Source: Candidatus Roizmanbacteria bacterium
GTDB taxonomy: Bacteria > Patescibacteriota > Microgenomatia > UBA1406 > GWC2-37-13
Assembly: GCA_016215445.1 (NCBI GenBank)
Contig: JACRJL010000003.1
Coordinates: forward strand, 62,001 to 126,000
Length of the DNA: 64,000 bases
Direction: 5' to 3'
This document shows, piece by piece, positions 28,212 through 58,537 of this stretch. The first letter of the stretch is position 1, and each line of letters begins with the position of its first letter. A program made the translations under genes and the position numbers. Under the pieces are notes generated by a model. That model was not told the origin of the DNA and ran no database searches. It saw nothing but the letters and a program-made list of their open reading frames with translations.

Positions 28212-28599
28212 TGGTGGAGATGGCGGGAATTGAACCCGCGTCCGAGAAAACACCGATATAAATTTTTAGTTGGGGTTAGATTGTTTTTACTCTTGCTTAC
28301 CCGCTTAAACAATCAAATCGGAGTAAACAGTCAGTTAGGGTTTGTCGATCTTAAATACAACTGAATACTTTTTAAGACCTTATTCCGATTGGTTTTCCCC
28401 TCATAAGATTGAATCGGACAAAATCAAGTGAGAGGGCGATTAGTTAACGTAAGCAAAGTTCATATTTGCATATGATCTTGCCAACATAGCTTCTCGCAAT
28501 TCTGACAATTGCTTATCAGTTATTTTTTCCGTTTAACGCAACAGGTGCGCCCCAACGATTTATAAAAGTGCAAATTTCCCGTCGATGCCTGGCATCCCC
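28212..28599 (-). ncRNA. ssrA: Transfer-messenger RNA
   Basis: The minus strand forms the tRNA-like ends of tmRNA. The 5' GGGGATG pairs with 3' CATCTCC, followed by the discriminator A and an encoded CCA (28214-28212). The T arm is GCGGG-TTCAATT-CCCGC, and the conserved 5' stretch CATCGACGGG is present. The mRNA-like part has a short ORF ending at 28440. The RNA is 388 bases long and rescues stalled ribosomes together with SmpB, whose gene is just upstream on the same strand. This RNA accounts for the only long non-coding stretch of the window. Confidence 0.96.
28440..28469 (-). other. tmRNA tag-peptide reading frame
   Basis: GCA to TAA encodes ANMNFAYVN. A GCA three codons upstream would add ARSY. 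The core NFAY resembles common tags such as those ending NFAYAA or NYALAA, but the last two residues read VN rather than AA. The resume codon is chosen by eye. Confidence 0.6.
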
Positions 28600-45462: not shown

Positions 45463-46551
45463 ATGATTAATCTAGACGATCAAGAAAAACTCAAGAATTT
45501 AGACAAAAAAAATACCTACGGATCGGTTGAAGAGCTTTCAAAACAATGTGTTCATGCTTTCGAAGACGCAAAAAAAATTAAGGTAGACGATTCTTATAAG
45601 GGTATAAATAAAATTGTTATGACTGGTATGGGCGGATCAGGTTTAGGGGCAAGAATAATTGATGGAATTTTTGGGCTTGAACTTAAATTTCCTTTTTTTC
45701 ATTTACATGACTATGATTTGCCTTCATGGGTAGATGAAAAAACCCTTGTGGTATGTTCGGCTTTTTCAGGTGAAACAGAAGAACCGGTTCAGACTGCGCA
45801 TCAAGCTCTAAAGAAAGGTTGTAAATGGATGACGATAGGTTCTGGTGGGACAATAATAGAATTGGCAAAAAAATACAAAGTACCTTACTATCATATTATT
45901 CCGACTTATAACCCATCAAAACAACCGCGAATGGCGATTGGTTATTCTGTTGTTGGTCAGTTAATGTTGGTTGCAAAAACCGGTGCCATAAAATTTTCAA
46001 AAGGAGAAATCGATCTTCTAGTTAAATCAATGAGTAAAGTAGTTGATGATTCTAAGATGTCTGTAAAAATAGATGACAATCAAGCAAAACAAACTGCTTT
46101 AAAAATGTATAAGAAAAATGTGATTTTCGTTGCTTCCCGTCATTTGGTTGGCGCTGCTCACACAACGAAAAACCAATTAAATGAAAACTCTAAAAATTTC
46201 TCAACGATTTTTGAAATTCCCGAATTAAATCATCATTTAATGGAAGGATTAAGATATCCTGAATCAAATAAAAAAGACATGATATTTTATTTTGCCGAAT
46301 CGGACCTTTATCCTGAAAGAATTATAAAAAGATACAAAATTACCGAGGATGTTGTCAACCAAAACGGAGTTGGCTATGTTACTTATAAACCGAAATCATC
46401 AGATCCCCTAGCTCAAGTATTTGAATACCTCCAATTTGGAGGATATGTTTCTTTTTACCTTTCTATGTTGAATGGCTTGGACCCGGCTCCGATTCCTTGG
46501 GTTGATTATTTTAAAGTTAAATTGGGTCAATCATTGGGTCAATGGAAATGA
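45463..46551 (+). CDS. Bifunctional phosphoglucose/phosphomannose isomerase (SIS fold)
   Basis: A 362-residue protein with two SIS sugar-isomerase domains. The first has MTGMGGSGLGARIIDG and LVVCSAFSGETEEPVQTA, the phosphate-binding sequences of the archaeal-type glucose/mannose-6-phosphate isomerase family. The C-terminal half contains ELNHHLMEGL with the catalytic-type His and Glu. It links glycolysis and mannose donors. TATAAT is 6 bases before the ATG. Confidence 0.88.
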   Translation: MINLDDQEKLKNLDKKNTYGSVEELSKQCVHAFEDAKKIKVDDSYKGINKIVMTGMGGSGLGARIIDGIFGLELKFPFFHLHDYDLPSWVDEKTLVVCSAFSGETEEPVQTAHQALKKGCKWMTIGSGGTIIELAKKYKVPYYHIIPTYNPSKQPRMAIGYSVVGQLMLVAKTGAIKFSKGEIDLLVKSMSKVVDDSKMSVKIDDNQAKQTALKMYKKNVIFVASRHLVGAAHTTKNQLNENSKNFSTIFEIPELNHHLMEGLRYPESNKKDMIFYFAESDLYPERIIKRYKITEDVVNQNGVGYVTYKPKSSDPLAQVFEYLQFGGYVSFYLSMLNGLDPAPIPWVDYFKVKLGQSLGQWK

Positions 46552-46567
46552 GTTAGTTTTATTAATT

Positions 46568-46695
46568 GGCTTTGTTTCTGGGAATGCTGTGTAAATCAGC
46601 AGCTGTGCCGCAACGGTAACCCCTTCGGGGAAGCCCGAGACCACCAAAGCCTTATCAGGTGCCGCCTGGTACCTGACCCCGTGCAGGGACGATTT
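46568..46695 (+). promoter_or_regulatory. Cobalamin riboswitch
   Basis: The closing stem GGCTTTG (46568-46574) pairs with CAAAGCC (46645-46651). Inside are GGGAA, the TGTG-x-AA-x-TC segment, CCGCAACGGTAA and the B12-box-like AAGCCCGAGACCACC, in the order of the cobalamin aptamer. A second hairpin (TCAGGTGCC/GGTACCTGA, 46655-46676) then precedes the AGGGA ribosome site of the 46696 gene. Translational control is therefore likely. Confidence 0.88.
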
Positions 46696-47808
46696 ATGTT
46701 GGCTACCCATAAGCTTGAAGGTGACTTTTTAAAAAAATATTCTGTTAATCCCCGCGAGTCTTCATATCTTAAAAAATTATCAAAAAAAGAGAGAGAGTTG
46801 ACTTTTAAGAAAAATCTCGACTCATATGTCAACCATGTCTTGGAAGATAATGTTGTTTCCACTCCTTATAGTTATCAATTGGATCAAAATAGTAGGATTA
46901 TTGTCTATCCGACAGGAGCCGAAGTGTCTTTCGACGAAAGGGAAAGGGGCGGTTTATACAAAAAAGGTCTAACAGATTCTTTGATAAATTCAATCAACCA
47001 CCCGGGTAGACTGTCTTTTCTCTATAGCCCGCCCGGGGTCACAAGCTTTGACAATAACCCTGACAATCCTTATACGAAAATAGGCAAATATAAAGACGGC
47101 CAACTCTATGTTATGTATTTTGACGGCGTCAAAATCAACGCCGTCGCCGTCAGCATTTCGGAAAGCGGAGAAACTTTTGTCAAGGAAGTTTTAGGGAGTT
47201 TATATGAAGAGGCATTGGTAAAACCGACTGAAATAGAGACAATCTCTCATTTTATTTCTCATTCTTTTTTGAGTGGTATAACCATAGATCAGTTTTTGGA
47301 TTTTCATGGTCACCATGGTTTGGACAGAGTAATTTACAGAAACAACAAAGATTACGAATTCAGCCTTTGGGAGACACTTGATCTTTTGAGAAAATCTTTT
47401 ACAGGGAATCTTGGTGTATTACGGGGAACGTCTTTTGGCGCCTCCTCCCTCGAAGATAAAAATCTTGACGAAGATTTTATTATTGAAACTTACAAAAAAC
47501 TGATTGTCGAATATATGATAAATAACGGTTTGAAATCTTTGAAACTGGGAGGGAGTTGTGGAGCGGAGGAAAAATTTTCAATCGAACAGGTGATAAACAG
47601 ATTTGATAATTTTTTTAATAATTTTTCGTCTTTGGACCGAATGCTCAAACAAAAAATGCCCAAGGAATTGGAGGAAAAGGAAAATAAAAAAGAAGGAGAA
47701 GAGGCTTGCGTTACCTGTCCGTATTGCGGAAACAAAGAGGAAAATAGAAAGACCGCGGTCGGATATATCTGTGGAAACAACGGTTGTGCTTCCAACAAAA
47801 AGAACTAA
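46696..47808 (+). CDS. Unknown cobalamin-riboswitch-controlled protein with C-terminal zinc ribbon
   Basis: A 370-residue soluble protein starting at the ATG at 46696, with AGGGA 6 bases upstream; a GTG at 46681 would start before that site. I do not recognise the main domain. Visible features are SYVNHVLEDNVVSTPYSYQL, a beta-rich stretch with YFDGVKINAVAVSISESGETF, HGHHGLD, and SLKLGGSCGAEEKFS. The end has four Cys pairs in the order CVTCPYCGN and ICGNNGC, a zinc ribbon. Control by a cobalamin riboswitch suggests a role in cobalamin supply or in replacing a cobalamin enzyme. Confidence 0.78.
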   Translation: MLATHKLEGDFLKKYSVNPRESSYLKKLSKKERELTFKKNLDSYVNHVLEDNVVSTPYSYQLDQNSRIIVYPTGAEVSFDERERGGLYKKGLTDSLINSINHPGRLSFLYSPPGVTSFDNNPDNPYTKIGKYKDGQLYVMYFDGVKINAVAVSISESGETFVKEVLGSLYEEALVKPTEIETISHFISHSFLSGITIDQFLDFHGHHGLDRVIYRNNKDYEFSLWETLDLLRKSFTGNLGVLRGTSFGASSLEDKNLDEDFIIETYKKLIVEYMINNGLKSLKLGGSCGAEEKFSIEQVINRFDNFFNNFSSLDRMLKQKMPKELEEKENKKEGEEACVTCPYCGNKEENRKTAVGYICGNNGCASNKKN

Positions 47809-47815
47809 TTTTATA

Positions 47816-48394
47816 TCATAAACGAAGTTTTATTCTTTCCAAAAGATAAGGAAATTTTTTGAATTTCTTGTACGTGGTAATATTAAAGTGCCCGGCGTTT
47901 TTGACTAAAATAAGTTTTGCGTTTAGATTTTGGGCGAGTTCTTTTCCCTCGGTTACTGGTATGACATCGTTCATCGATTGAAATATCTCGAAATATGAAC
48001 TTCGATTTCTAATTTTGTCCCACTCAAATGACTTATTATGAAATGAATCTATGATTGTTGGATCAGAACTCCAGAGGCTAGTCTTCCAATAAATCCACGG
48101 TGCAACAAGATAGGTTGCCTTAACTTGGACGGGGTATTTCATAAAAAATCTATAAAGAAATACATTTCCCCGACTGTGGGCGACAAAAATTGTTTCCTCA
48201 TTAATATAATTCATATACTGTTCCATTTTTTTTAACCACTCATTTATTCTGTGGTCGTGTTTCGTATTAGAATGAATCGGAAATTTTGGGACAATAACAT
48301 TGCAGTTTAGTTCTTCCAGTTCACTTTTGAGCCAAGGGAACCAATTTTCTTCAGGATGACCATATGAACCATGGATAATAAAAATGTTTCTCAT
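47816..48394 (-). CDS. RBBP9/YdeN-type serine hydrolase
   Basis: A 192-residue alpha/beta hydrolase. The start NIFIIHGSYGHPEENWFPWL carries the oxyanion region, FVAHSRGNVFLYRFF the nucleophile Ser, and KNAGHFNIT the catalytic His. The size and order match the RBBP9/YdeN group. It is second in a two-gene operon: its start overlaps the upstream hydrolase stop by 4 bases. Confidence 0.88.
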   Translation of the reverse strand: MRNIFIIHGSYGHPEENWFPWLKSELEELNCNVIVPKFPIHSNTKHDHRINEWLKKMEQYMNYINEETIFVAHSRGNVFLYRFFMKYPVQVKATYLVAPWIYWKTSLWSSDPTIIDSFHNKSFEWDKIRNRSSYFEIFQSMNDVIPVTEGKELAQNLNAKLILVKNAGHFNITTYKKFKKFPYLLERIKLRL

Positions 48395-49266
48395 AAAAAG
48401 TTTTTTTTAACCCAGTCAATAATTACTTTTACTAGCTGTTTTTCATAACCTAGATAGCTATGAGAAGCGTCTTTAATAATTTTAACTTCAGCCCGTGATT
48501 TTTCTTTGATTAGTCTTGTGGCAGTTTCAACAGATGGTTTCATGTAAATATCTTTTGACCCGAAAATTACCAATAAAGGCTCTTTGACTTCAGAGATGAT
48601 TTTCCAATTTAGAGAGTCGGGATTATGATAAGGGGTTAATGTTCCTTTTCCGTAATCAGTTAAATAACCATAATACATCTGGGCTGAAGTCATATAACTA
48701 ACAGGAGAAAACTCTTTTGACAGTATCTCATTACCTTTGCCTTTTTTAACCATCTCTTTAATTTTGTTGTTTATTTCTTTGTATTTTTTTTCGCCTAGCG
48801 CATAAAACATTAATCCGTCATCATTCTGCGGAGAAAGATGGATTTGCCCGATTACCCTTTTATCCTTTTTTACATGTTGATAATAAAGATTTTTTTGAGA
48901 AAGGCTGTGACCTTGAAGAATAATCTTTTTTACACCTCGTTTGACAAGAAATTCTATCCAGGCTTTTATGTCCAAAAGACAGTCTTCGAACTTTTCAAAA
49001 CCACCGCCGATTTGCGTCCATTCGACTTTTCCATCCTTGTGTTTTCTAATATCGGCAAAAACATCGTGTCCCCTATTATTTGCGGTTAAGAAAGAAATTC
49101 CATTCGTTGCTAATCTTTTTCCCTCCGTGTCAACGAATTTATGAGTATAAAAATCTCCGGCTGTGCCGTGAAAATGGAGGACAGCCAGGTCGCTTTTTTG
49201 ATCTATGAAAAAGCCCGCCAATTCCAAGCCATCCAAAGTAATTGTTTTTACTAATTCTCCTTTCAT
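48391..49266 (-). CDS. Alpha/beta hydrolase (DUF1749-like)
   Basis: A 291-residue hydrolase. LAVLHFHGTAGDFYTHKFVD is the oxyanion region, IILQGHSLSQKNLYYQ contains Ser in the G-x-S-x-S/G elbow, and KDASHSYLGYE holds the catalytic His. LLVIFGSKDIYMKPS carries the acid. The size resembles the DUF1749 group. The substrate is unknown. The two hydrolases are coupled by a 4-base overlap. Confidence 0.85.
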   Translation of the reverse strand: MKGELVKTITLDGLELAGFFIDQKSDLAVLHFHGTAGDFYTHKFVDTEGKRLATNGISFLTANNRGHDVFADIRKHKDGKVEWTQIGGGFEKFEDCLLDIKAWIEFLVKRGVKKIILQGHSLSQKNLYYQHVKKDKRVIGQIHLSPQNDDGLMFYALGEKKYKEINNKIKEMVKKGKGNEILSKEFSPVSYMTSAQMYYGYLTDYGKGTLTPYHNPDSLNWKIISEVKEPLLVIFGSKDIYMKPSVETATRLIKEKSRAEVKIIKDASHSYLGYEKQLVKVIIDWVKKNFL

Positions 49267-49277
49267 ATTTTTATAAA

Positions 49278-50528
49278 CTATATCATTGCTGCGACCTGTT
49301 TGCCCAATTTTACAGCATAGTTGGTTCCTCTGTCATAAGGGTAAGTCATGTCGAGGTTGGCGATATAAAAATTTTTCAAAGGCGTTTTAAAATCAGGTTT
49401 ATTTTTTACAAAATCTTTGTCAAAAATTGGTTGGGCAAAAGAACCCTTGAAATTGTAAGTATTTAGTATTTTGTATTTAGTATTTAGTATTTTTAAATAA
49501 GGCAAAACGAATTTAAGTAATTCCTCTTTGGTTAGAGCGAATAACCTGTCATCTCTTTTTAAATACCAACCTAAATAAGCAATGTGGCTTCCGCCGTAGT
49601 GTTTTTTGTCAATAAAATTCGTGTGCTGGATAATACCCATGATTGGAATCTGTGGAGCGGAAACATTAAGCCAGTAAGTTTTTTTAAGAAGCGGTTGATT
49701 TGTTTCCAGTATCAAAGTCAAGGCGTGGAGATATTTTAATTTGGAAAATCTCTCCAAATATTTTTTTGGAAAGAGGTTACTAGTTAGTTTTACCATTACA
49801 GGCGTCGGCAAGGTGGAAATGACAACGTCAAAAATTTGGCCGTTAATTAGATACTTCGCTCCCCGCTTTTTTATCTCCTTTATTTCATAACCCGTTAACA
49901 CGTTAACTCGTAAACTCCTTGACTCTTTAACTAAATGGTTAATGAATGTTTGAAATCCTCCCTCAATGTATCCGAGATTTTTTGTCCTTTTTGTAATTCT
50001 AGCCCAGATAAAAGAAGCCAAAATAATTCCCGCATAATCCCCGAACTTTTTCCGAAAAAGTTCTTGCCACAGTCTTTTCCACACAATTTTGCCCATGGTT
50101 TTTTTAATAAACTCTTTTGCGGTGATTTTCTCGAATAAAGACAGAAATGGCGTAAATTTCAAAAAAGCCAGGACAAAACCGGCACGGAATTTATTGAATA
50201 GGTTAAGATGGGGAAGTTTGAGAAAGTCTAGGGGTGTATCCATGGGGTGGATACCTAAATCTCCAAAAATAGAGGCTGTTTCTGGTGTCTTGAAAAATAT
50301 CTTGTTAAATCCCGTTTCCTTGGCAAAATTTATAATATCGTAGTCGTTGGCAAAGAGATGGTGATAAGCTCTTTCCAGGTGCCAGTTCCAGTTCGGTTGC
50401 TTGAAACCGACGGCCAATCCTCCCAGTACAGGACTTTTTTCAAAAAGAGTCACTTTATTTTTTTTCTTGGTCAGCGTGTAGGCTGCTGTTAATCCTGTAA
50501 TTCCTCCTCCTAAAACCGCTATTTTCAT
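49278..50528 (-). CDS. FAD-dependent amine-oxidase-family protein
   Basis: A 416-residue flavoprotein. The N-terminal dinucleotide-binding motif is KIAVLGGGITGLTAAYTLTKKKNKVTLFEK, with the protoporphyrinogen-oxidase/UDP-galactopyranose-like pattern. The C-terminal GTNYAVKLGKQVAAMI fits the second FAD contact. Related proteins in bacteria act on isoprenoids or sugars; the substrate is unknown. An AT-rich microsatellite (49455-49494) is in frame and encodes KILNTKYKILNTYN. TATAAT lies upstream. Confidence 0.85.
   Translation of the reverse strand: MKIAVLGGGITGLTAAYTLTKKKNKVTLFEKSPVLGGLAVGFKQPNWNWHLERAYHHLFANDYDIINFAKETGFNKIFFKTPETASIFGDLGIHPMDTPLDFLKLPHLNLFNKFRAGFVLAFLKFTPFLSLFEKITAKEFIKKTMGKIVWKRLWQELFRKKFGDYAGIILASFIWARITKRTKNLGYIEGGFQTFINHLVKESRSLRVNVLTGYEIKEIKKRGAKYLINGQIFDVVISTLPTPVMVKLTSNLFPKKYLERFSKLKYLHALTLILETNQPLLKKTYWLNVSAPQIPIMGIIQHTNFIDKKHYGGSHIAYLGWYLKRDDRLFALTKEELLKFVLPYLKILNTKYKILNTYNFKGSFAQPIFDKDFVKNKPDFKTPLKNFYIANLDMTYPYDRGTNYAVKLGKQVAAMI
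49455..49494 (-). repeat. In-frame microsatellite in the FAD-oxidoreductase gene
   Basis: Direct copies of an ATACTAA-type unit lie in the coding strand and add an Ile/Leu/Asn/Lys/Tyr stretch to the protein. Confidence 0.7.
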
Positions 50529-50591
50529 ATATGTATTATTATAGTCTATAATAATTCCCGCATAATTACCGAAAGATTACCGCAGAAATTA

Positions 50592-51569
50592 CTAACTTTG
50601 CAGTCTCTGTCTTTCAATCAAGATGGTTTCGATAAAAATGGTCGCCGGCACGGCTAGTAAAACGCCCAAAACACCGGCCAGCTTGCTGCCTATAATGAGA
50701 GCCATTAGAGTAATGATAGGGTGGAGGCCGACGACTTTTTTCATAACAATAGGAACAAGGAGGTTGTTTTCCAACTGCTGGACAATAATATATATAGCAA
50801 TACTTGAAAGTCCTAATTTGTAAGAAGTTGAAAAACCAATTAATGCCGCTGGAACAGTTGATATTATTGGTCCAAGCGTCGGGACAACTTCAAGAAGTCC
50901 GGCGAGAACTGATAGAGCCAGGGCGTACTTCATCCCGATAAATGTTAAACCGATATAAGTGAGAATGCCGACGATCGACATCAAAATTATTTCTCCCCAA
51001 AACCAGACGCCGGCTCTTTTTTGGGCCCTTTCGACAATCAAATTGATTCTTTTAGCTTCGACGTCGTCATAAAAATTAACCAGAACACTTTCGATAAAAT
51101 TTTTTTCCAAAAGAAGATAGAAGCCAAAAAAAAGCGTTGAAGTAACAAAGATAGCATTGGAAAATAGACCTTTGACCAAGCTGACAGCTTCATTGGCTAA
51201 GTTCGGAAGATTTTGAGCTAGTGTACTAAAGTCAAGGTATGGCGAAACTTGGGGAAGAGTTGTTTTAACAATTCCGGGAAAATTTTTAAAAAGATGGCCA
51301 ACTTCATTAACTAAAGGAGGAAGAACTAAGGCGAACAAATTAGCAATAGTAAATAGAAACAAAATATAAACAATAAAAGCTGATAGACCACGGTGGAGTT
51401 TCCTCTTTTCTAAAAAATCAACGATAGGCTTTAGGGCTCCACTAATAATAAAAGCAATAAATAGAGAGAAGATAAGTTCTCTTATTTGCCAGAGGATACT
51501 TAGTCCCAAAAGAAAAAAGACGGTAAAAATTACTGTTTTTGACGAAATCTCTATTTTTTGCGATTTCAT
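50592..51569 (-). CDS. AI-2E-family transporter
   Basis: A 325-residue protein with eight membrane helices and the family blocks ALKPIVDFLEKRKLHRGLSAFIV, PLVNEVGHLFKNFPGIV and VVGLHPIITLMALIIGSKLAGVLGVLLAVP. The family includes TqsA and sodium/proton antiporter-like proteins. TATAAT lies 7 bases before the ATG. Confidence 0.92.
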   Translation of the reverse strand: MKSQKIEISSKTVIFTVFFLLGLSILWQIRELIFSLFIAFIISGALKPIVDFLEKRKLHRGLSAFIVYILFLFTIANLFALVLPPLVNEVGHLFKNFPGIVKTTLPQVSPYLDFSTLAQNLPNLANEAVSLVKGLFSNAIFVTSTLFFGFYLLLEKNFIESVLVNFYDDVEAKRINLIVERAQKRAGVWFWGEIILMSIVGILTYIGLTFIGMKYALALSVLAGLLEVVPTLGPIISTVPAALIGFSTSYKLGLSSIAIYIIVQQLENNLLVPIVMKKVVGLHPIITLMALIIGSKLAGVLGVLLAVPATIFIETILIERQRLQS

Positions 51570-51587
51570 AAATTCAATTATACACGA

Positions 51588-52283
51588 TTATCCTTTGGCG
51601 AGGGCTAAAACATAGACTTTTTCTGCTCCGGCTTTTTTGAGAGTTTTGGCCGCCTCCCTGACAGTTGAACCGCTTGTGACAACGTCGTCAACAAGAATGA
51701 TCCTGGACTTCGGGATTAGATCAATTTGAGAGCGAGGGTTTATTTTAAATGCGCCTCTTAGATTTTGGTAACGCTCTTTTTTTGTTTTCAGCTCCGCCTG
51801 ATTTTTTGTCTCTTTCACTCTTATTAGAAAATCAACCAGAGGAAGTTTGACAAACTTTTGAAAAAATTTCGTCAAAAATAAGGCTTGATTGAAGCCCCGT
51901 TCTCTGATTTTTTTCTCAGTCAAAGGAATGGGCTGAAAATAGATAGGATTAGCGAGCTTATTGTAGAAGGCCAAATTCCTGATTGTCTCCGGTTTAATGG
52001 CTTTAAAGAATTCCCGACCGGTTTCTGTTGCTAATCTATATTTGATATTTTTAATGACTTTTTTCAAAATACGGTTGTAATGAAAAATAGAGGCGACTCC
52101 GTCAATGTTAAACTTATTTAAACAAATCGGGTGGGTTAGACCGTTCAGGCTGGCCTTTTTACAATAGAAGCAGATTGGATGATCGACTGTCCAAAGGTCG
52201 TTCCGGCAACGGGGGCAAAAGTAGGTCCCGGGGAGGCTACAGCCCACGCAGAACTTAGGAAAAAAAAGGTCTACAAAAGACAT
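51588..52283 (-). CDS. comF: ComF-family phosphoribosyltransferase
   Basis: A 231-residue protein starting at MSFVDLFFPKFCVGCS. TATAAT (52295-52290) lies 6 bases before this ATG and inside the longer ORF that begins at 52304. An N-terminal zinc ribbon (CVGC, CPRC, later CFYC) is followed by the PRPP loop IILVDDVVTSGSTVREAAK. ComF is needed for DNA uptake in several bacteria and may act with the T4SS-like genes; that is inference. Confidence 0.88.
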   Translation of the reverse strand: MSFVDLFFPKFCVGCSLPGTYFCPRCRNDLWTVDHPICFYCKKASLNGLTHPICLNKFNIDGVASIFHYNRILKKVIKNIKYRLATETGREFFKAIKPETIRNLAFYNKLANPIYFQPIPLTEKKIRERGFNQALFLTKFFQKFVKLPLVDFLIRVKETKNQAELKTKKERYQNLRGAFKINPRSQIDLIPKSRIILVDDVVTSGSTVREAAKTLKKAGAEKVYVLALAKG

Positions 52284-52442
52284 AATCTCATTATAAGTGT
52301 TCACAAAATTTTGGGATGTTGTCTTTTTGAAAAATCTGAAAAATCGTTTGAGGCTAAAGTTTTAAGTTGATATAGTTTTTATATATTTTGACCTCTTGAA
52401 ATCCTACCATTAGTGTTTTAAATTGTAAATTACGCTAATTAT

Positions 52443-52889
52443 ATGTTTTGTATATTTTGCAAGAATAACGATACCGAAGTCATCGAGACCCGGTTGTCCG
52501 AAGACGGAGGAGCGATAAGAAGAAGAAGACAGTGTCCGAAGTGCGAAAAGCGGTTTACGACTTATGAACGGGTGGAAGAGCTACCCATTCTGGTCATAAA
52601 AAGAGATGGTCGAAGGGAGCGGTTTGATAGGGAGAAGTTAAGGCGCGGGATGGTCATCCCTTGCGAAAAGACCACGGTTTCGGCCGAACAGATAGAAACG
52701 CTTATGAACGAGGTAGAGTCTGACCTCAAGGAAAAAGACACGACTGAGGTTGAAAGTAAGGAAATAGGCAATTTAGTTGCGAAAAAATTAAAAAAATTAG
52801 ATAAAATTGCCTACATCAGATTTGCGAGCGTTTTTAAAAGGTTTGTTGACTTGGAAGATTTTGAAACAGAGTTAAAAAAATTAGCCTAA
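52443..52889 (+). CDS. nrdR: Transcriptional repressor NrdR
   Basis: A 148-residue protein with an N-terminal zinc ribbon (CIFC near residue 3 and CPKC near residue 31) and an ATP-cone domain (VIKRDGRRERFDREKLRRGM). NrdR senses ATP/dATP and represses ribonucleotide reductase genes. It is the first gene of the nrdR-nrdJ operon, 4 bases before nrdJ, so it probably controls its own operon. I saw no clear NrdR boxes upstream. Confidence 0.95.
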   Translation: MFCIFCKNNDTEVIETRLSEDGGAIRRRRQCPKCEKRFTTYERVEELPILVIKRDGRRERFDREKLRRGMVIPCEKTTVSAEQIETLMNEVESDLKEKDTTEVESKEIGNLVAKKLKKLDKIAYIRFASVFKRFVDLEDFETELKKLA

Positions 52890-52893
52890 AAAT

Positions 52894-55278
52894 ATGAAAT
52901 TAACAGGAATATCGGAAAAAGTTTTTTTGGATAGATATTCATTAAAGGATAAAACAGGTAAACCTCTGGAAAAGAAACCAGAGGAGATGTGGTCGAGGAT
53001 TGCCAAGGCAGCGGCCGCAGTAGAAAAAAAATCAAAACAAAAAAAATGGGGAAAAGAATTCTATTCGGTTTTGAAAGACTTCAAATACGTTCCAGGTGGA
53101 AGGATTCTGTCCGGGGCAGGAACAGGTTTCGCCGTTTCCTTCTACAACTGTTTTGTCATTCCCTCTCCCAAGGATTCGCGCGGCGGAATCTTGGAAACAC
53201 TCAAACAGATGATTGAGATTATGGCTCGCGGAGGCGGCGTTGGAATTAATCTTTCCTCTCTTCGTCCAAGAGGCGCTCGGGTGAAAAAGGTCAATGGTTT
53301 TTCCTCGGGTCCATGCAACTGGGCTGAACTTTTCTCAGTCGCTACAAAAGACATCATTCAACAGGGTGGAACAAGGCGGGGTGCTTTGATGCTCATGCTT
53401 TGGGACTGGCACCCTGACATAGAGGAGTTCATCACGGTCAAACAGGATCTAAGCAGAATTAACGGCGCCAATCTTTCTCTCTGCGTTTCCGACACTTTTA
53501 TGGAGGCGGTTGAAAAAGACGCCGATTGGCCTTTGGTTTTTCCTGATTTTAAGGATCCAGAATATGATGAAAAATGGACAGGCGACCTTGAAGCTTGGAA
53601 AAAAATGGGTAAGAAGATAATTGTTCAAAAGATCGTCAAGGCGAGAAAGATTTGGGATCTTATTGCTGAGGCAGCCTGGAAGTCAGCTGAGCCGGGTGTG
53701 GTTTTTCTCGAGAGATACAATAAACTATATAATAACTACTATTGGAACAAAGTAATCTGCGTCAACCCCTGCGGCGAAGAAGGTTTACCTGCTTGGGGAG
53801 TGTGTAACCTTGGTTCGATTAATCTTTCTTCCTTAGTCAAAGGTTCAGATATAGATAAAAAAGGCAGTTTTGATTTCAATGCTTTGAAAAAAATCGTCAG
53901 GTCGGCTGTCCGTTTCCAAGACAATGTTGTTGACATGGATCCTTATGTTTTTCCGGGAATCCGCAAGACCCAGTTTGAAGGCGAGAGAAGAATCGGGTTG
54001 GGGACGATGGGTTTGGGTGATACTTTGATCAAACTCCATCTGCGCTACGGGTCGCCGGAATCTCTTGAATTTATTGACAAGGTTTACAAAATTATCCGCG
54101 ACGAAGCCTACCTGGCCTCCTCGATCTTCGGAAAAGAAAAGGGGAATTTCCCCAAGTACGACAAGAAACTGTTTTTAGAGGGAAAGTTCGTCAGCCAGCT
54201 TTCGGACAACGTCAAGAAATCAATCAAGAAAAACGGAATAAGGAATTCTTTACTTTTAATGCAGGCACCGACAGGATCGACTTCTTTGATGGCTGAGACA
54301 ACAAGCGGAATAGAGCCTGTTTATGAGTTTGAATTCAACCGTCACGACAGGCTAGGTGATCATGTCATCCGCCACTATCTCTATGACGCTTGGTATAAAA
54401 AACACGAGAAAGACGTCAAGGCGGGAAAGATGAAAAGACCAGATTGGTTTGTTTCTGCCAACGACCTAACGCCGGAAGATCACGTTACAGTCCAGGCCGT
54501 CATCCAAAAATACGTCGACGCCTCAATTTCAAAGACTGTCAATGCTCCAAAAACCCACACAGTTGAGGACGTCAAGAAACTCTATACTTTGGCTTATAAG
54601 CTTGGTTGTAAGGGAATCGCTTATATGAGGGATGGTTCAAGGCCTGGCGTTCTCGAAAGGAAAGAAGAAAAGAAAGAGGAAGTAAAAGTAGTTGTTCCGC
54701 CTTCATATACTGTCAAACCGAGACCGATGGTCGTCCGGGGCGCCACTTATAAAATTCAGACCCCAGTTGGTATGGCCTTCATCACCCTCAATACAAATGG
54801 CGGCGATCCACCCGAGCCTTTGGAAATGTTTATCACAGTCGGCAAAGCCGGATCAGATGTTTATGCTATGGCAGAAGGATTGGGAAGAATGGTGTCGGTG
54901 GCTTTGCGTTTTTCCTCCCATCTTCCGGTGGCCGAGCGGGTCCAGGAAATCATCAATCAGCTTTCGGGAATCGGCGGCGCCAGATCAAGCGGATTCGGCA
55001 AAGATAGGATAAGAAGTCTGCCAGATGCCGTCGCCAAAGTTCTTTCTATGCACTATGGCTTAAACGGCGAGGCGAAAAAGACAAACGGCAACGGACTATT
55101 ACACGAAGCAGTCCAGGAAACACCTAAACTTGTTACGTCGATGACCCAGCCAAGTCTGATCCAGCCTTCAGTCGCCCCTTCAACTTCGTTTGACATCTGT
55201 CCGAGCTGCGGAGAGGTCAGCTTGGTCCACGAAGAAGGCTGCAAGAAATGCTATGGCTGCGGATATTCTGAATGTTAA
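52894..55278 (+). CDS. nrdJ: Class II (adenosylcobalamin-dependent) ribonucleotide reductase
   Basis: A 794-residue reductase. Active-site sequences include SFYNCFVIPSP with one redox Cys, VNPCGEE with the catalytic N-x-C-x-E, and VCNLGSINL. Residues about 600-740 form a TSCPD domain (GGARSSGFGKDRIRSLPDAV), and the C-terminus has a CPSCGE...CYGCGYSEC tail for thioredoxin-type reduction. No small radical-generating subunit is encoded nearby; activity needs adenosylcobalamin. The next gene makes that cofactor. Confidence 0.95.
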   Translation: MKLTGISEKVFLDRYSLKDKTGKPLEKKPEEMWSRIAKAAAAVEKKSKQKKWGKEFYSVLKDFKYVPGGRILSGAGTGFAVSFYNCFVIPSPKDSRGGILETLKQMIEIMARGGGVGINLSSLRPRGARVKKVNGFSSGPCNWAELFSVATKDIIQQGGTRRGALMLMLWDWHPDIEEFITVKQDLSRINGANLSLCVSDTFMEAVEKDADWPLVFPDFKDPEYDEKWTGDLEAWKKMGKKIIVQKIVKARKIWDLIAEAAWKSAEPGVVFLERYNKLYNNYYWNKVICVNPCGEEGLPAWGVCNLGSINLSSLVKGSDIDKKGSFDFNALKKIVRSAVRFQDNVVDMDPYVFPGIRKTQFEGERRIGLGTMGLGDTLIKLHLRYGSPESLEFIDKVYKIIRDEAYLASSIFGKEKGNFPKYDKKLFLEGKFVSQLSDNVKKSIKKNGIRNSLLLMQAPTGSTSLMAETTSGIEPVYEFEFNRHDRLGDHVIRHYLYDAWYKKHEKDVKAGKMKRPDWFVSANDLTPEDHVTVQAVIQKYVDASISKTVNAPKTHTVEDVKKLYTLAYKLGCKGIAYMRDGSRPGVLERKEEKKEEVKVVVPPSYTVKPRPMVVRGATYKIQTPVGMAFITLNTNGGDPPEPLEMFITVGKAGSDVYAMAEGLGRMVSVALRFSSHLPVAERVQEIINQLSGIGGARSSGFGKDRIRSLPDAVAKVLSMHYGLNGEAKKTNGNGLLHEAVQETPKLVTSMTQPSLIQPSVAPSTSFDICPSCGEVSLVHEEGCKKCYGCGYSEC

Positions 55279-55279
55279 T

Positions 55280-55783
55280 ATGCCTATCTACACAAAAACC
55301 GGTGACAAGGGAACCACTTCGCTTTATGGTGGAAAGCGCGTCTCCAAATCTGATTTCCAAATAGAAGCCTATGGATCAATCGACGAACTATCGAGTTTTA
55401 CAGGACTGGTGGAAACTAAAGTAAAAAATAAATTAGATAAGAAGTTTTTGATTGATCTGCAAAAGGATTTCTATAAAATCATGGCTTCCTTGTCCGGAGC
55501 AAAGATCGACCTGGATTTTCTCGAGGAAAAGATTATTGGCTTTGAAAAAACAATGAACTCGATTGACAAAAAACTTCCCAGATTGACAAGGTTCATTATC
55601 CCGGGTGGAACAGAAATTGCCTCCTGGTTTCATATTCTTCGTGTCGTCTGCCGCCGGGCGGAAAGAAAAGTCATAAAACATTCTCAAAAAGAACTACAAG
55701 TAATTAAATACTTAAATCGCCTGTCCGATACTTTTTTTGTCATTGCCCGCAAGTATGGACAAAAAAACGAAGTTGTTTTATAA
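55280..55783 (+). CDS. Cob(I)alamin adenosyltransferase, PduO type
   Basis: A 167-residue protein starting at the ATG at 55280 one base after the nrdJ stop; longer starts would run inside nrdJ. Conserved blocks are YTKTGDKGTTSLYGGKRVSKSD, IDELSSFTGLV and VCRRAERKVIKHSQ. It converts cob(I)alamin and ATP into adenosylcobalamin, the cofactor of NrdJ. The tight coupling to nrdJ matches supply with demand. Confidence 0.95.
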   Translation: MPIYTKTGDKGTTSLYGGKRVSKSDFQIEAYGSIDELSSFTGLVETKVKNKLDKKFLIDLQKDFYKIMASLSGAKIDLDFLEEKIIGFEKTMNSIDKKLPRLTRFIIPGGTEIASWFHILRVVCRRAERKVIKHSQKELQVIKYLNRLSDTFFVIARKYGQKNEVVL

Positions 55784-55793
55784 TCTCTAAGCT

Positions 55794-56189
55794 ATGTTTT
55801 CCAAATTTAAAAAACCAATCGTCTTAATCGTTTTGGCCTTTATTCTGGTTGCGGCCGGCGTCTTCACCTATAAAACTTTTTTTGCCAAAAAAGCAACCGT
55901 CTCGGAGCAGATCACTGTATTTTTGAAAACCGACACAGGCGACCAGTATTTGGAATTGAGAACCAAAAAGGGAAATACAGCTTTGCAGTTGACTCAGGAA
56001 AGAATGGATGTCGACGTGCGCGGCGAAGGAAAAAACGCCTATGTGACTGGCATAAACGGCAGGGAAGCCGACTCAAAGAAAAAAGAATACTGGGCGTTTT
56101 ATGTCAACGGCAAGCCGGCTGAAGTCGGGGCAGGAAGTTATATATTAAAACAAGGTGACAAGATCGAATGGAAAATCGAAAATTACTGA
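55794..56189 (+). CDS. DUF4430/transcobalamin-like anchored protein
   Basis: A 131-residue protein with an N-terminal membrane helix (about 8-27) and a DUF4430 domain resembling the beta domain of intrinsic factor and transcobalamin. The C-terminal block KEYWAFYVNGKPAEVGAGSYILKQGDKIEWKI is the family hallmark. It follows the adenosyltransferase by 10 bases. Binding of cobalamin outside the membrane is likely from fold and context but not proven. Confidence 0.85.
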   Translation: MFSKFKKPIVLIVLAFILVAAGVFTYKTFFAKKATVSEQITVFLKTDTGDQYLELRTKKGNTALQLTQERMDVDVRGEGKNAYVTGINGREADSKKKEYWAFYVNGKPAEVGAGSYILKQGDKIEWKIENY

Positions 56190-56695
56190 AAAAAATAATT
56201 TCCTACGGTTTAATAATTTTGCTGGCTGTATTTGCCAGGTTGATTCCCCATTCTCCGAACTTTGCTCCGATTGGAGGACTGGCTCTATTTTCCGGATCGA
56301 AGTTTAAAAAAAATATTGCTTTATTAATTCCACTGTTCGCGATGTTGATTTCCGATCTATTTTTAGGATTTCATAACACAATAGTTTATGTCTATGTCAG
56401 TTTTATTATTACTGTTTTGATAGGGAGAATGATAAAAAATAATAACTGGCAGTCTTTGGCGTTGGCCAGTTTGACATCCTCGGTTTTGTTTTTTTTAATT
56501 ACAAACTTCGGCGTCTGGGCAGCTGCCGGATCTATGTACCCGAAAACTATTGATGGTTTATGGCAAAGTTATTTGCTGGGCCTGCCGTTTTTCAGAAATA
56601 CTTTACTGTCTGATTTTTTCTACACTTTTTCCTTTTTCTACTCACATAGATTTTTGTCCAACTTTCTTCTTAAAAAACCTTCCTTACTCGGTTAA
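56168..56695 (+). CDS. Six-helix membrane protein, ECF S-component-like (DUF6580-like)
   Basis: A 175-residue protein with about five to six membrane helices. FARLIPHSPNFAPIGGLALFSGSKF and FLGFHNTIVYVYVSF are typical of a small family often placed near cobalamin or metal genes, with the size and layout of ECF-transporter substrate-binding subunits. The start overlaps the DUF4430 gene by 22 bases, so the two are coupled. No ECF ATPase or T component is in the window. Import of cobalamin is inference. Confidence 0.7.
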   Translation: MENRKLLKKIISYGLIILLAVFARLIPHSPNFAPIGGLALFSGSKFKKNIALLIPLFAMLISDLFLGFHNTIVYVYVSFIITVLIGRMIKNNNWQSLALASLTSSVLFFLITNFGVWAAAGSMYPKTIDGLWQSYLLGLPFFRNTLLSDFFYTFSFFYSHRFLSNFLLKKPSLLG

Positions 56696-56737: not shown

Positions 56738-56766
56738 TTGACAAATAAAATTTGAAGTCTTATAAT
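56738..56766 (+). promoter_or_regulatory. Perfect consensus promoter
   Basis: TTGACA (56738-56743), exactly 17 bases and TATAAT (56761-56766), followed by the ATG at 56777, 10 bases later. It is the best promoter seen in the window. Confidence 0.85.
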
Positions 56767-56776
56767 CTCCCCAAAT

Positions 56777-58537
56777 ATGGGAAAAGAGTTGTTCGTCGCT
56801 CTAGCTAAAAGAGAGTCTTTTTCTAGTTCGAGGTCAGAGACAATTACCGCTCCATTAAGAAAAGAGACAAGAGTTGGTCGTTTTCTCGACCGGGTTAATC
56901 AACTTTCCATAGATAGATACTTTCATAATAGAAATCCTGAATTTTTGGAATATAGGCGAGAGATAGAAGCGGGTTTGACACAGGATAAAATCAAAAGGGT
57001 CCTTTTTGATCAGGATATGAAAGGCACAAAGCCTGGAACAGCTAATTTCGATAGGTTGATAGCCGTTTCTTCCTTGAGAGAGCAGATAAAAAGACAGATG
57101 ATTAGGGAAGTTTTGCAAAAAGGTGAAAATAGATTACGACTTTCTGAACCGGAAAAGATCGTTCTTTTGGCTAACTGTGATCTGGCCGACCAGATGGATT
57201 TGTTTTACCGAAGGTGGAGTCAAAACGAAGCCAAAAATCCCCTTTCAAAAAAGTTGAAGAAAATGTCGCCAAAAGAGAGAACCAAATTTCTTGAAAAAAA
57301 AGGTGTCCGTACTCCAGAGACAAATTATTTATATTTAGATTTGATTGAAAATCCTCCAGGGAGCGGTAAGATAGAAAAAGTGCCTTACTCGGTCGGATAC
57401 GGCGAACAGGTTGGTAAGATTGTCAAAACCATAAATCAAATGTGTGTTGATTTGGGAAAAGTAAAGACAGGAAAAAAGAGCGCCAAAAATTTGGCGACGT
57501 ACTACAGAAGTTATGCGAAAGCCCTCGCTTCAACCAATTTAGACAAGCAAGAAAAACTTTGGAAAAAAGTGGATGAAAACTGGCTAGCGGTCCGGGGAAG
57601 GATGCAACCTATTCACATGATGGAATCATATGTCGACCCGGCTGGGTTGAGGGTTGACCCCGATCTGTCTTTAATGTTTCTTGACGATCGTTATCAAAAA
57701 TTGACTAACCGGGCGAAAAATACCCAGGTAAAAATGGTCGATTGGTTAATCGAAGAACTGGGTGACAAAAAATCCGCCCTTAAATCGGAGAAATCAATGA
57801 GGATGGCTTTGGTCGGCATGTACAATCCTTCGGTCATCGCGGGAAGACGTCATACTTTCCGTCCGGCTGGACAAAATATCCCAAACAGGGAAGACGTCAG
57901 GTTGCAGGGAGTAAAAATATTTCTGGATGTCGAAACAATGAAACAGAGATGGCAGGAAGAAAAAAAACTATTGAGTAAGATTTTTGGTTCCAAACGAGCA
58001 GAGAAATTGTTCAATGAGGGGAAAATGATTGATATAGGGATGAGTGTTTTGGTGGCTGGACACGAAGTCGCCCACAATCTGTTTATTGTTAGAGGAACTA
58101 GAAAGGCTATGGGCGAGAGCGCTTATAACAATCTGGAGGAGCATAAGTCTAGTCATGCGATCACAGCTGCCGCTGGAGAAATTCTTTCACCGGAAGATCA
58201 AAAACAGCTGCTTCTTTATCTTTTTGCCTCGAGTCTGCGTAGTTTTTCCCTCAAAGGCGACGAATCAAGAAAGCCATATTACTATGATGCCGTTGTCTGT
58301 ATGAACTTAATGAACTTCGCCGGTATCGTAAGAAATAACAATGGGAAGATTGAGTTTAATTTTTCAGAGCCAAATATGAGAATATTTTTTGGACAAGCAA
58401 GACAGCTTCTTACAGGTCCTTTAGCAGAAACTTATGATAAAAAAGATCCTAAAATGGCAGAAGCATATATTAAGACTTATTTTAAAGAAAGCAAATTAGT
58501 CAACGATTTAGTGAAAAGAGTTAGTAAACAAAAATAA
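56777..58537 (+). CDS. Unknown HExxH metallopeptidase-like protein
   Basis: A 586-residue soluble protein. Near residue 429 it reads VAGHEVAHNLF, a H-E-x-x-H zinc motif, followed about 20 residues later by LEEHKSSHAIT with the E-E-x-K-like layout of dipeptidyl-peptidase III type gluzincins. The N-terminal half is helical and basic with no recognised domain. The strong promoter and the cluster of unknown genes after it are notable. Peptidase activity is a motif-based inference. Confidence 0.72.
   Translation: MGKELFVALAKRESFSSSRSETITAPLRKETRVGRFLDRVNQLSIDRYFHNRNPEFLEYRREIEAGLTQDKIKRVLFDQDMKGTKPGTANFDRLIAVSSLREQIKRQMIREVLQKGENRLRLSEPEKIVLLANCDLADQMDLFYRRWSQNEAKNPLSKKLKKMSPKERTKFLEKKGVRTPETNYLYLDLIENPPGSGKIEKVPYSVGYGEQVGKIVKTINQMCVDLGKVKTGKKSAKNLATYYRSYAKALASTNLDKQEKLWKKVDENWLAVRGRMQPIHMMESYVDPAGLRVDPDLSLMFLDDRYQKLTNRAKNTQVKMVDWLIEELGDKKSALKSEKSMRMALVGMYNPSVIAGRRHTFRPAGQNIPNREDVRLQGVKIFLDVETMKQRWQEEKKLLSKIFGSKRAEKLFNEGKMIDIGMSVLVAGHEVAHNLFIVRGTRKAMGESAYNNLEEHKSSHAITAAAGEILSPEDQKQLLLYLFASSLRSFSLKGDESRKPYYYDAVVCMNLMNFAGIVRNNNGKIEFNFSEPNMRIFFGQARQLLTGPLAETYDKKDPKMAEAYIKTYFKESKLVNDLVKRVSKQK

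Follow-up and report, generated by a model that had tools for sequence, protein, structure and literature searches.

A probable vitamin B12 uptake, salvage and use cassette around nrdJ in a Roizmanbacteria-like patescibacterium

The locus described here raises the question of how a transporter-poor cell with a genome of about 1 Mb obtains the vitamin B12 that it needs to make DNA, for which we found no described answer. The stretch of DNA analysed (the window) is 64,000 nucleotides long and belongs to a genome of 940 kb, which is 97% complete. Among named organisms its nearest relatives are Candidatus Roizmanbacteria, with 82% identity in the DUF6580 protein described below. The organism is a Roizmanbacteria-like member of the Patescibacteria, and is probably host-dependent. 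Its genome contains one match to the profile of NrdJ and showed no class I reductase, so the only ribonucleotide reductase detected is one that requires B12. No B12-binding domain of family PF02310 was found in the window's own genome, and NrdJ is therefore the sole B12 enzyme detected there. The nrdJ gene lies in a run of five genes, which we conclude is a cassette for the uptake, salvage and use of B12, with a probability of roughly 0.85. The five genes are as follows.

52443-52889, + strand: nrdR, ribonucleotide reductase regulator with a zinc ribbon and an ATP cone (PF22811, PF03477); TIGR00244, 191.6 bits, cut-off 124.7
52894-55278, + strand: nrdJ, class II, adenosylcobalamin-dependent ribonucleotide reductase; TIGR02504, 547.5 bits, cut-off 399.95; TSCPD domain PF12637
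55280-55783, + strand: PduO-type cob(I)alamin adenosyltransferase; TIGR00636, 158.2 bits, cut-off 108.45; PF01923, 2e-48, residues 3-158
55794-56189, + strand: DUF4430 protein; PF14478, 6e-21, 75.2 bits, cut-off 23.8
56168-56695, + strand: DUF6580 protein; PF20221, 2e-47

All five identities exceed the curated cut-offs, and the nrdJ product has a Cys-rich C-terminal domain in which the C-terminal cysteines are present. The successive gaps are 4, 1 and 10 bases, followed by a 22-base overlap between DUF4430 and DUF6580, which is identical in three relatives (L152, L157, L172). Coordinates and family scores agree with the initial annotation of this DNA, in which nrdR, nrdJ, a PduO gene, a DUF4430 gene and an S-component-like gene were described as consecutive, with gaps or overlaps of at most 22 bases.

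Gene order was compared in about 60 stretches from other genomes (L092-L151), where the recurrent arrangement is nrdR-nrdJ-X-DUF4430-DUF6580. The slot X is usually occupied by an adenosyltransferase of the BtuR family instead of PduO. The same order is present in dozens of genomes, and is far beyond chance. PduO and BtuR belong to unrelated families that catalyze the same reaction, and the slot is thus kept by function; the two occur together in only one of 118 adenosyltransferase-bearing genomes. NrdJ and NrdR with PduO or BtuR are ordinary, known parts, and what differs here is their fixed operon with a putative capture-and-import pair. No earlier report of such an operon was found, in a search that did not reach most subscription papers. 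Two further features were seen. Some Patescibacteria carry tandem arrays of three to five nrdJ-like genes (G034:C46, G013:C12, G069:C39 in L133, G040:C6 in L135, G139:C73 in L149, and G148:C6), so that class II ribonucleotide reductase is unusually multiplied there, and in L094, L100 and L104 a thioredoxin-like gene lies directly 3' of DUF6580, as a possible NrdJ reductant in the same operon.

The initial annotation suggested checking the co-occurrence of the five genes across genomes of the candidate phyla radiation, and held that its proposal would fail if the two membrane-associated genes occurred mostly in genomes without any cobalamin enzyme. We sampled 192 genomes of the phylum, from some 30 families. 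DUF6580 is present in 50 of these, together with DUF4430 in 47 and with NrdJ in 41 (Fisher p 7e-5), so that most genomes with DUF6580 do have a cobalamin enzyme. An adenosyltransferase of either type is found in 45/50 genomes with DUF6580 and in 73/142 without it (Fisher p 4e-7). Only three genomes with DUF6580 (G022, G068, G169) lack both an NrdJ and an adenosyltransferase over the cut-off. G068 has a piece of NrdJ on the same contig, and G169 has a weaker NrdJ match. In G022, which is a complete genome, DUF4430-DUF6580 is followed 22 bases downstream by a radical-SAM (S-adenosylmethionine) enzyme with a B12-binding domain (L134, 8289-10794, - strand). Radical-SAM enzymes that bind B12 are not known to use adenosylcobalamin, which would explain why this genome manages without an adenosyltransferase.

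The DUF6580 protein is predicted to be a solitary S component of the cobalamin type, acting as a membrane carrier. A profile built from 46 Patescibacteria sequences was compared with 177,635 distinct PDB sequences (E up to 10) and gave a single match, to 6fnp_A (E 6.2e-7 over 157 positions); distant relatives of the protein were found with a 12-sequence subset of the same alignment. The entry 6FNP is the B12 transporter ECF-CbrT (PMC5997447), where ECF stands for energy-coupling factor. The AlphaFold2 model has a mean predicted local distance difference test (pLDDT) score of 94.7 and the six-helix architecture of an S component. Its top Foldseek matches are nearly all S components, with one unrelated regulator within the first 16, and the highest template modelling (TM) scores are to BtuM with cyanocobalamin (8c7p, 0.67/0.66) and with hydroxycobalamin (0.65). 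The fold assignment is based on the Foldseek probability (0.95-0.97 for most top matches), the TM-scores, the consistency of the match list and the sequence match, and not on the Foldseek E-values. No paper on DUF6580 was found, most subscription papers being outside the search, and the role proposed for it appears to be new, while the other parts of the locus, apart from family R (see below), are of known kinds.

The DUF4430 protein has one N-terminal transmembrane helix followed by a domain resembling the β domain of transcobalamin, and is membrane-anchored and extracytoplasmic; a lipobox-like motif is present in roughly one in three of the related proteins. Its PDB profile matches are confined to intrinsic factor, transcobalamin-1 and -2 and the bacterial DUF4430 structure 3u7z. 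The AlphaFold2 model (pLDDT 87.5) gives 19 Foldseek matches at E up to 0.001, and all 19 are β domains of transcobalamin, intrinsic factor or haptocorrin, or 3u7z. Around the single invariant tryptophan, Trp100, the motif YWxFYxxG aligns with the YWQF/YWEL of intrinsic factor and haptocorrin. From these profiles and models, it probably serves as a corrinoid capture protein outside the cytoplasmic membrane. There is a precedent in the bacterial transcobalamin-like SLBB proteins, which are homologous and likewise extracytoplasmic (PMC1796856, PMC5599065), and which were predicted in 2007 to scavenge B12, being encoded in CbiO/CbiQ operons (PMC1796856). DUF4430 is instead coupled to DUF6580 and NrdJ. 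Two suggestions of the initial annotation, that DUF4430 resembles a cobalamin-binding fold and that the membrane protein is S-component-like, are thus upheld by both profiles and predicted structures.

Riboswitches provide a further connection to B12. Of 29 Patescibacteria loci that were scanned, seven (L094, L100, L104, L109, L115, L158, L169) have a cobalamin-class riboswitch immediately 5' of DUF4430, and in another three (L157, L172, L174) one lies directly 3' of DUF6580, ahead of another gene. Outside the phylum (Bacteroidota, Ignavibacteria), riboswitches occur within a few kb of DUF6580 in 6 of 20 scanned loci. In five of the six (L185, L189, L198, L214, L222) a TonB-dependent receptor, identified with Pfam, adjoins DUF6580; in the sixth (L223), the corresponding gene, of 630 aa, was outside the Pfam receptor scan. 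The receptors of L189 and L198 were tested by sequence, and their best match is to BtuB structures. Most DUF6580 neighbours outside the phylum are housekeeping genes (MutL, carboxyltransferase), so that only the BtuB subset offers gene context of any value there.

The EcfT/CbiQ family (PF02361) is absent from the window's genome and from all 50 genomes with DUF6580. It was found in only one of the 192 genomes, which has no DUF6580, while the same search was positive in 10 of 14 control genomes. FecCD, the BtuC family, was searched for in the window's own genome only and is also absent, and with EcfT and FecCD both lacking no other B12 importer was seen there. Import is therefore probably achieved without an ATPase module. 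This bears on the suggestion of the initial annotation that the last two genes capture and import cobalamin. The folds, profiles, co-occurrence and riboswitches all support it, but strictly speaking the pair does not qualify as an ECF transporter, of which the complete (group II) type includes an EcfT in the genome.

The closest parallel is BtuM of Thiobacillus denitrificans, for which facilitated diffusion with trapping by adenosylation has been proposed; it has no ECF module and its gene lies beside btuR (PMC6072759). DUF6580 shares with it the S-component fold, hosts without EcfT, and a gene beside an adenosyltransferase. The differences are that BtuM has an invariant cobalt-ligating cysteine and that DUF6580 is paired with a DUF4430 capture protein; at the level of sequence, BtuM was not among the PDB matches reported for the DUF6580 profile. 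By analogy, the following mechanism can be proposed. DUF4430, held by its one-helix anchor, would capture a corrinoid outside the cytoplasmic membrane and hand it to DUF6580, an S-component-type carrier. As has been suggested for solitary BtuM, DUF6580 would move it inward with no ECF ATPase module involved. PduO would then adenosylate cob(I)alamin, at once making the coenzyme and trapping the corrinoid inside. NrdJ would use the adenosylcobalamin to produce deoxyribonucleotides, with NrdR adjusting nrdJ expression. Binding and movement of the corrinoid by DUF4430 and DUF6580, the hand-over, the solitary mode of transport and an outside source, such as the partners named in the initial annotation, are the steps that we infer.

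A number of observations weigh against this scheme. The p-values for co-occurrence are optimistic, given the lack of independence among related genomes, and 15 of 48 sampled loci have neither NrdJ nor an adenosyltransferase within 5 kb of DUF6580. The Foldseek E-values for DUF6580 are weak (0.25-1, best 0.25). DUF4430 lacks the α/α toroid, which provides much of the binding by transcobalamin. The DUF6580 protein of the window has no cysteine at all, so the Cys-cobalt ligation chemistry of BtuM cannot apply to it, and no invariant cysteine exists across the 46 sequences. Finally, CbrT of Lactobacillus delbrueckii, expressed alone, gave no uptake in E. coli without the ECF module (PMC5997447), and this failure means that an S component by itself is not always sufficient. 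When the BtuM precedent is weighed against the missing cysteine and the CbrT result, a solitary DUF6580 carrier with DUF4430 as its capture partner is still favoured, with less assurance than B12 uptake as such.

The alternative that survives best is a conventional ECF transporter in which DUF6580 would be the S component, while EcfT and EcfA would be too diverged to be recognized or would lie in unassembled DNA. CbrT, a distant relative but the only one of solved structure with detectable sequence homology to DUF6580, operates with EcfT-EcfA-EcfA' and needs this module for uptake (PMC5997447), which favours such an arrangement. It is nevertheless unlikely, given the EcfT counts above with their positive controls, and given that the window's own genome is 97% complete. 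It is less likely again that DUF4430 and DUF6580 capture and import some other substrate (a different tetrapyrrole, a complex of cobalt, or a vitamin unrelated to B12), their place in an operon with nrdJ being incidental. The ligands of S components and SLBB domains are in general diverse, as cautioned by a reviewer of the 2007 work (PMC1796856), but here the cobalamin riboswitches stand directly 5' of DUF4430, the neighbours in other phyla are BtuB-like, the sole PDB matches are B12 proteins, and both types of adenosyltransferase fill the same slot. The least probable option is a B12 sensor, or uptake of cobinamide or other corrinoids for remodelling and not of finished cobalamin. Against it, neither protein has a signalling domain; in its favour, cobinamide too is bound by CbrT (PMC5997447).

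Uptake of B12 by the DUF4430-DUF6580 pair is therefore retained as the preferred explanation. It offers a concrete two-gene candidate for B12 uptake, would give DUF6580 a function in several phyla, and presents a testable example of B12 uptake in which no dedicated ATPase takes part. It also supplies a genomic marker for Patescibacteria that need external B12 to make DNA.

The window also contains a second B12-controlled unit beside the cassette, in which a riboswitch precedes a gene that we call family R. Its features are as follows.

46518-46662, + strand: cobalamin riboswitch aptamer RF00174; 40.0 bits, gathering score 31.5; E 1.2e-6 for the window of 64 kb; model positions 1-189/189
46677-46688, + strand: small hairpin CCCCGTGCAGGG of the expression platform; overlaps with the ribosome-binding site and lies 7 bases 5' of ATG 46696
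46696-47808, + strand: family R protein, 370 aa, with a C-terminal zinc ribbon and no transmembrane segment; start ATG 46696

This is the sole cobalamin riboswitch in the window's genome. It scores above the gathering threshold and lies 5.8 kb upstream of the cassette, in good agreement with the initial annotation, which had placed one about 6 kb upstream in front of an unknown gene. Control of the nrdR-DUF6580 run by this riboswitch was considered and rejected: five minus-strand genes (47816-52304) intervene before nrdR, and such control is not plausible in this genome.

Apart from the zinc ribbon, nothing in Pfam, NCBIfam, PHROGs or the PDB matches family R, which appears to be a new, unannotated protein family. 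It was found in 17 of 281 genomes of the class, including the window's own, which gave 16 further loci; one weak match (L248) was discarded as unrelated and 15 were kept as true relatives. The family is represented at 46696-47808 of the window and in the stretches L233-L247, L157, L166, L167 and L172. The core ER...SPPG...YGQLY is conserved. In 13 of the 15 relatives, RF00174 or AdoCbl-II is present over the Rfam threshold immediately 5' of R. The other two, L237 and L240, show by eye remnant or sub-threshold forms of the switch, L240 being cut by the contig end. Most of the 15 have a CCCG[AT]GCAGGG hairpin ahead of the start codon, with degenerate versions in L236, L242 and L244. The riboswitch and R thus form a recurrent B12-governed unit, which in some relatives is joined to the cassette: in L166, L167, L172, L157, L235 and L239, R directly follows the NrdJ cassette or some portion of it.

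The position of the hairpin points to translational control, with translation of R expected when little cobalamin is available. Given this expected expression, R probably either helps in acquiring B12 or replaces a B12-dependent step. A B12-independent reductase was considered for R, and no homology was found. The most ambitious version of our proposal is an importer found throughout the Patescibacteria that consists of two proteins, has no ATPase and is driven only by adenosylation, with R as a dedicated part; we would give this an even chance. In any case, family R adds a new riboswitch-controlled protein family.

Some minor observations were made in the window. A search for NrdR boxes gave 6 matches where 3.5 are expected, which is chance level, and none was upstream of nrdR. 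Just past the cassette, a perfect sigma-70 consensus (TTGACA-17-TATAAT, 56738-56766, + strand) lies directly 5' of a DUF7897 gene at 56777. Lastly, the tmRNA (28212-28599, - strand) encodes a long tag that ends in ...NFAYVN, compared to the usual ending of the ...LAA type.

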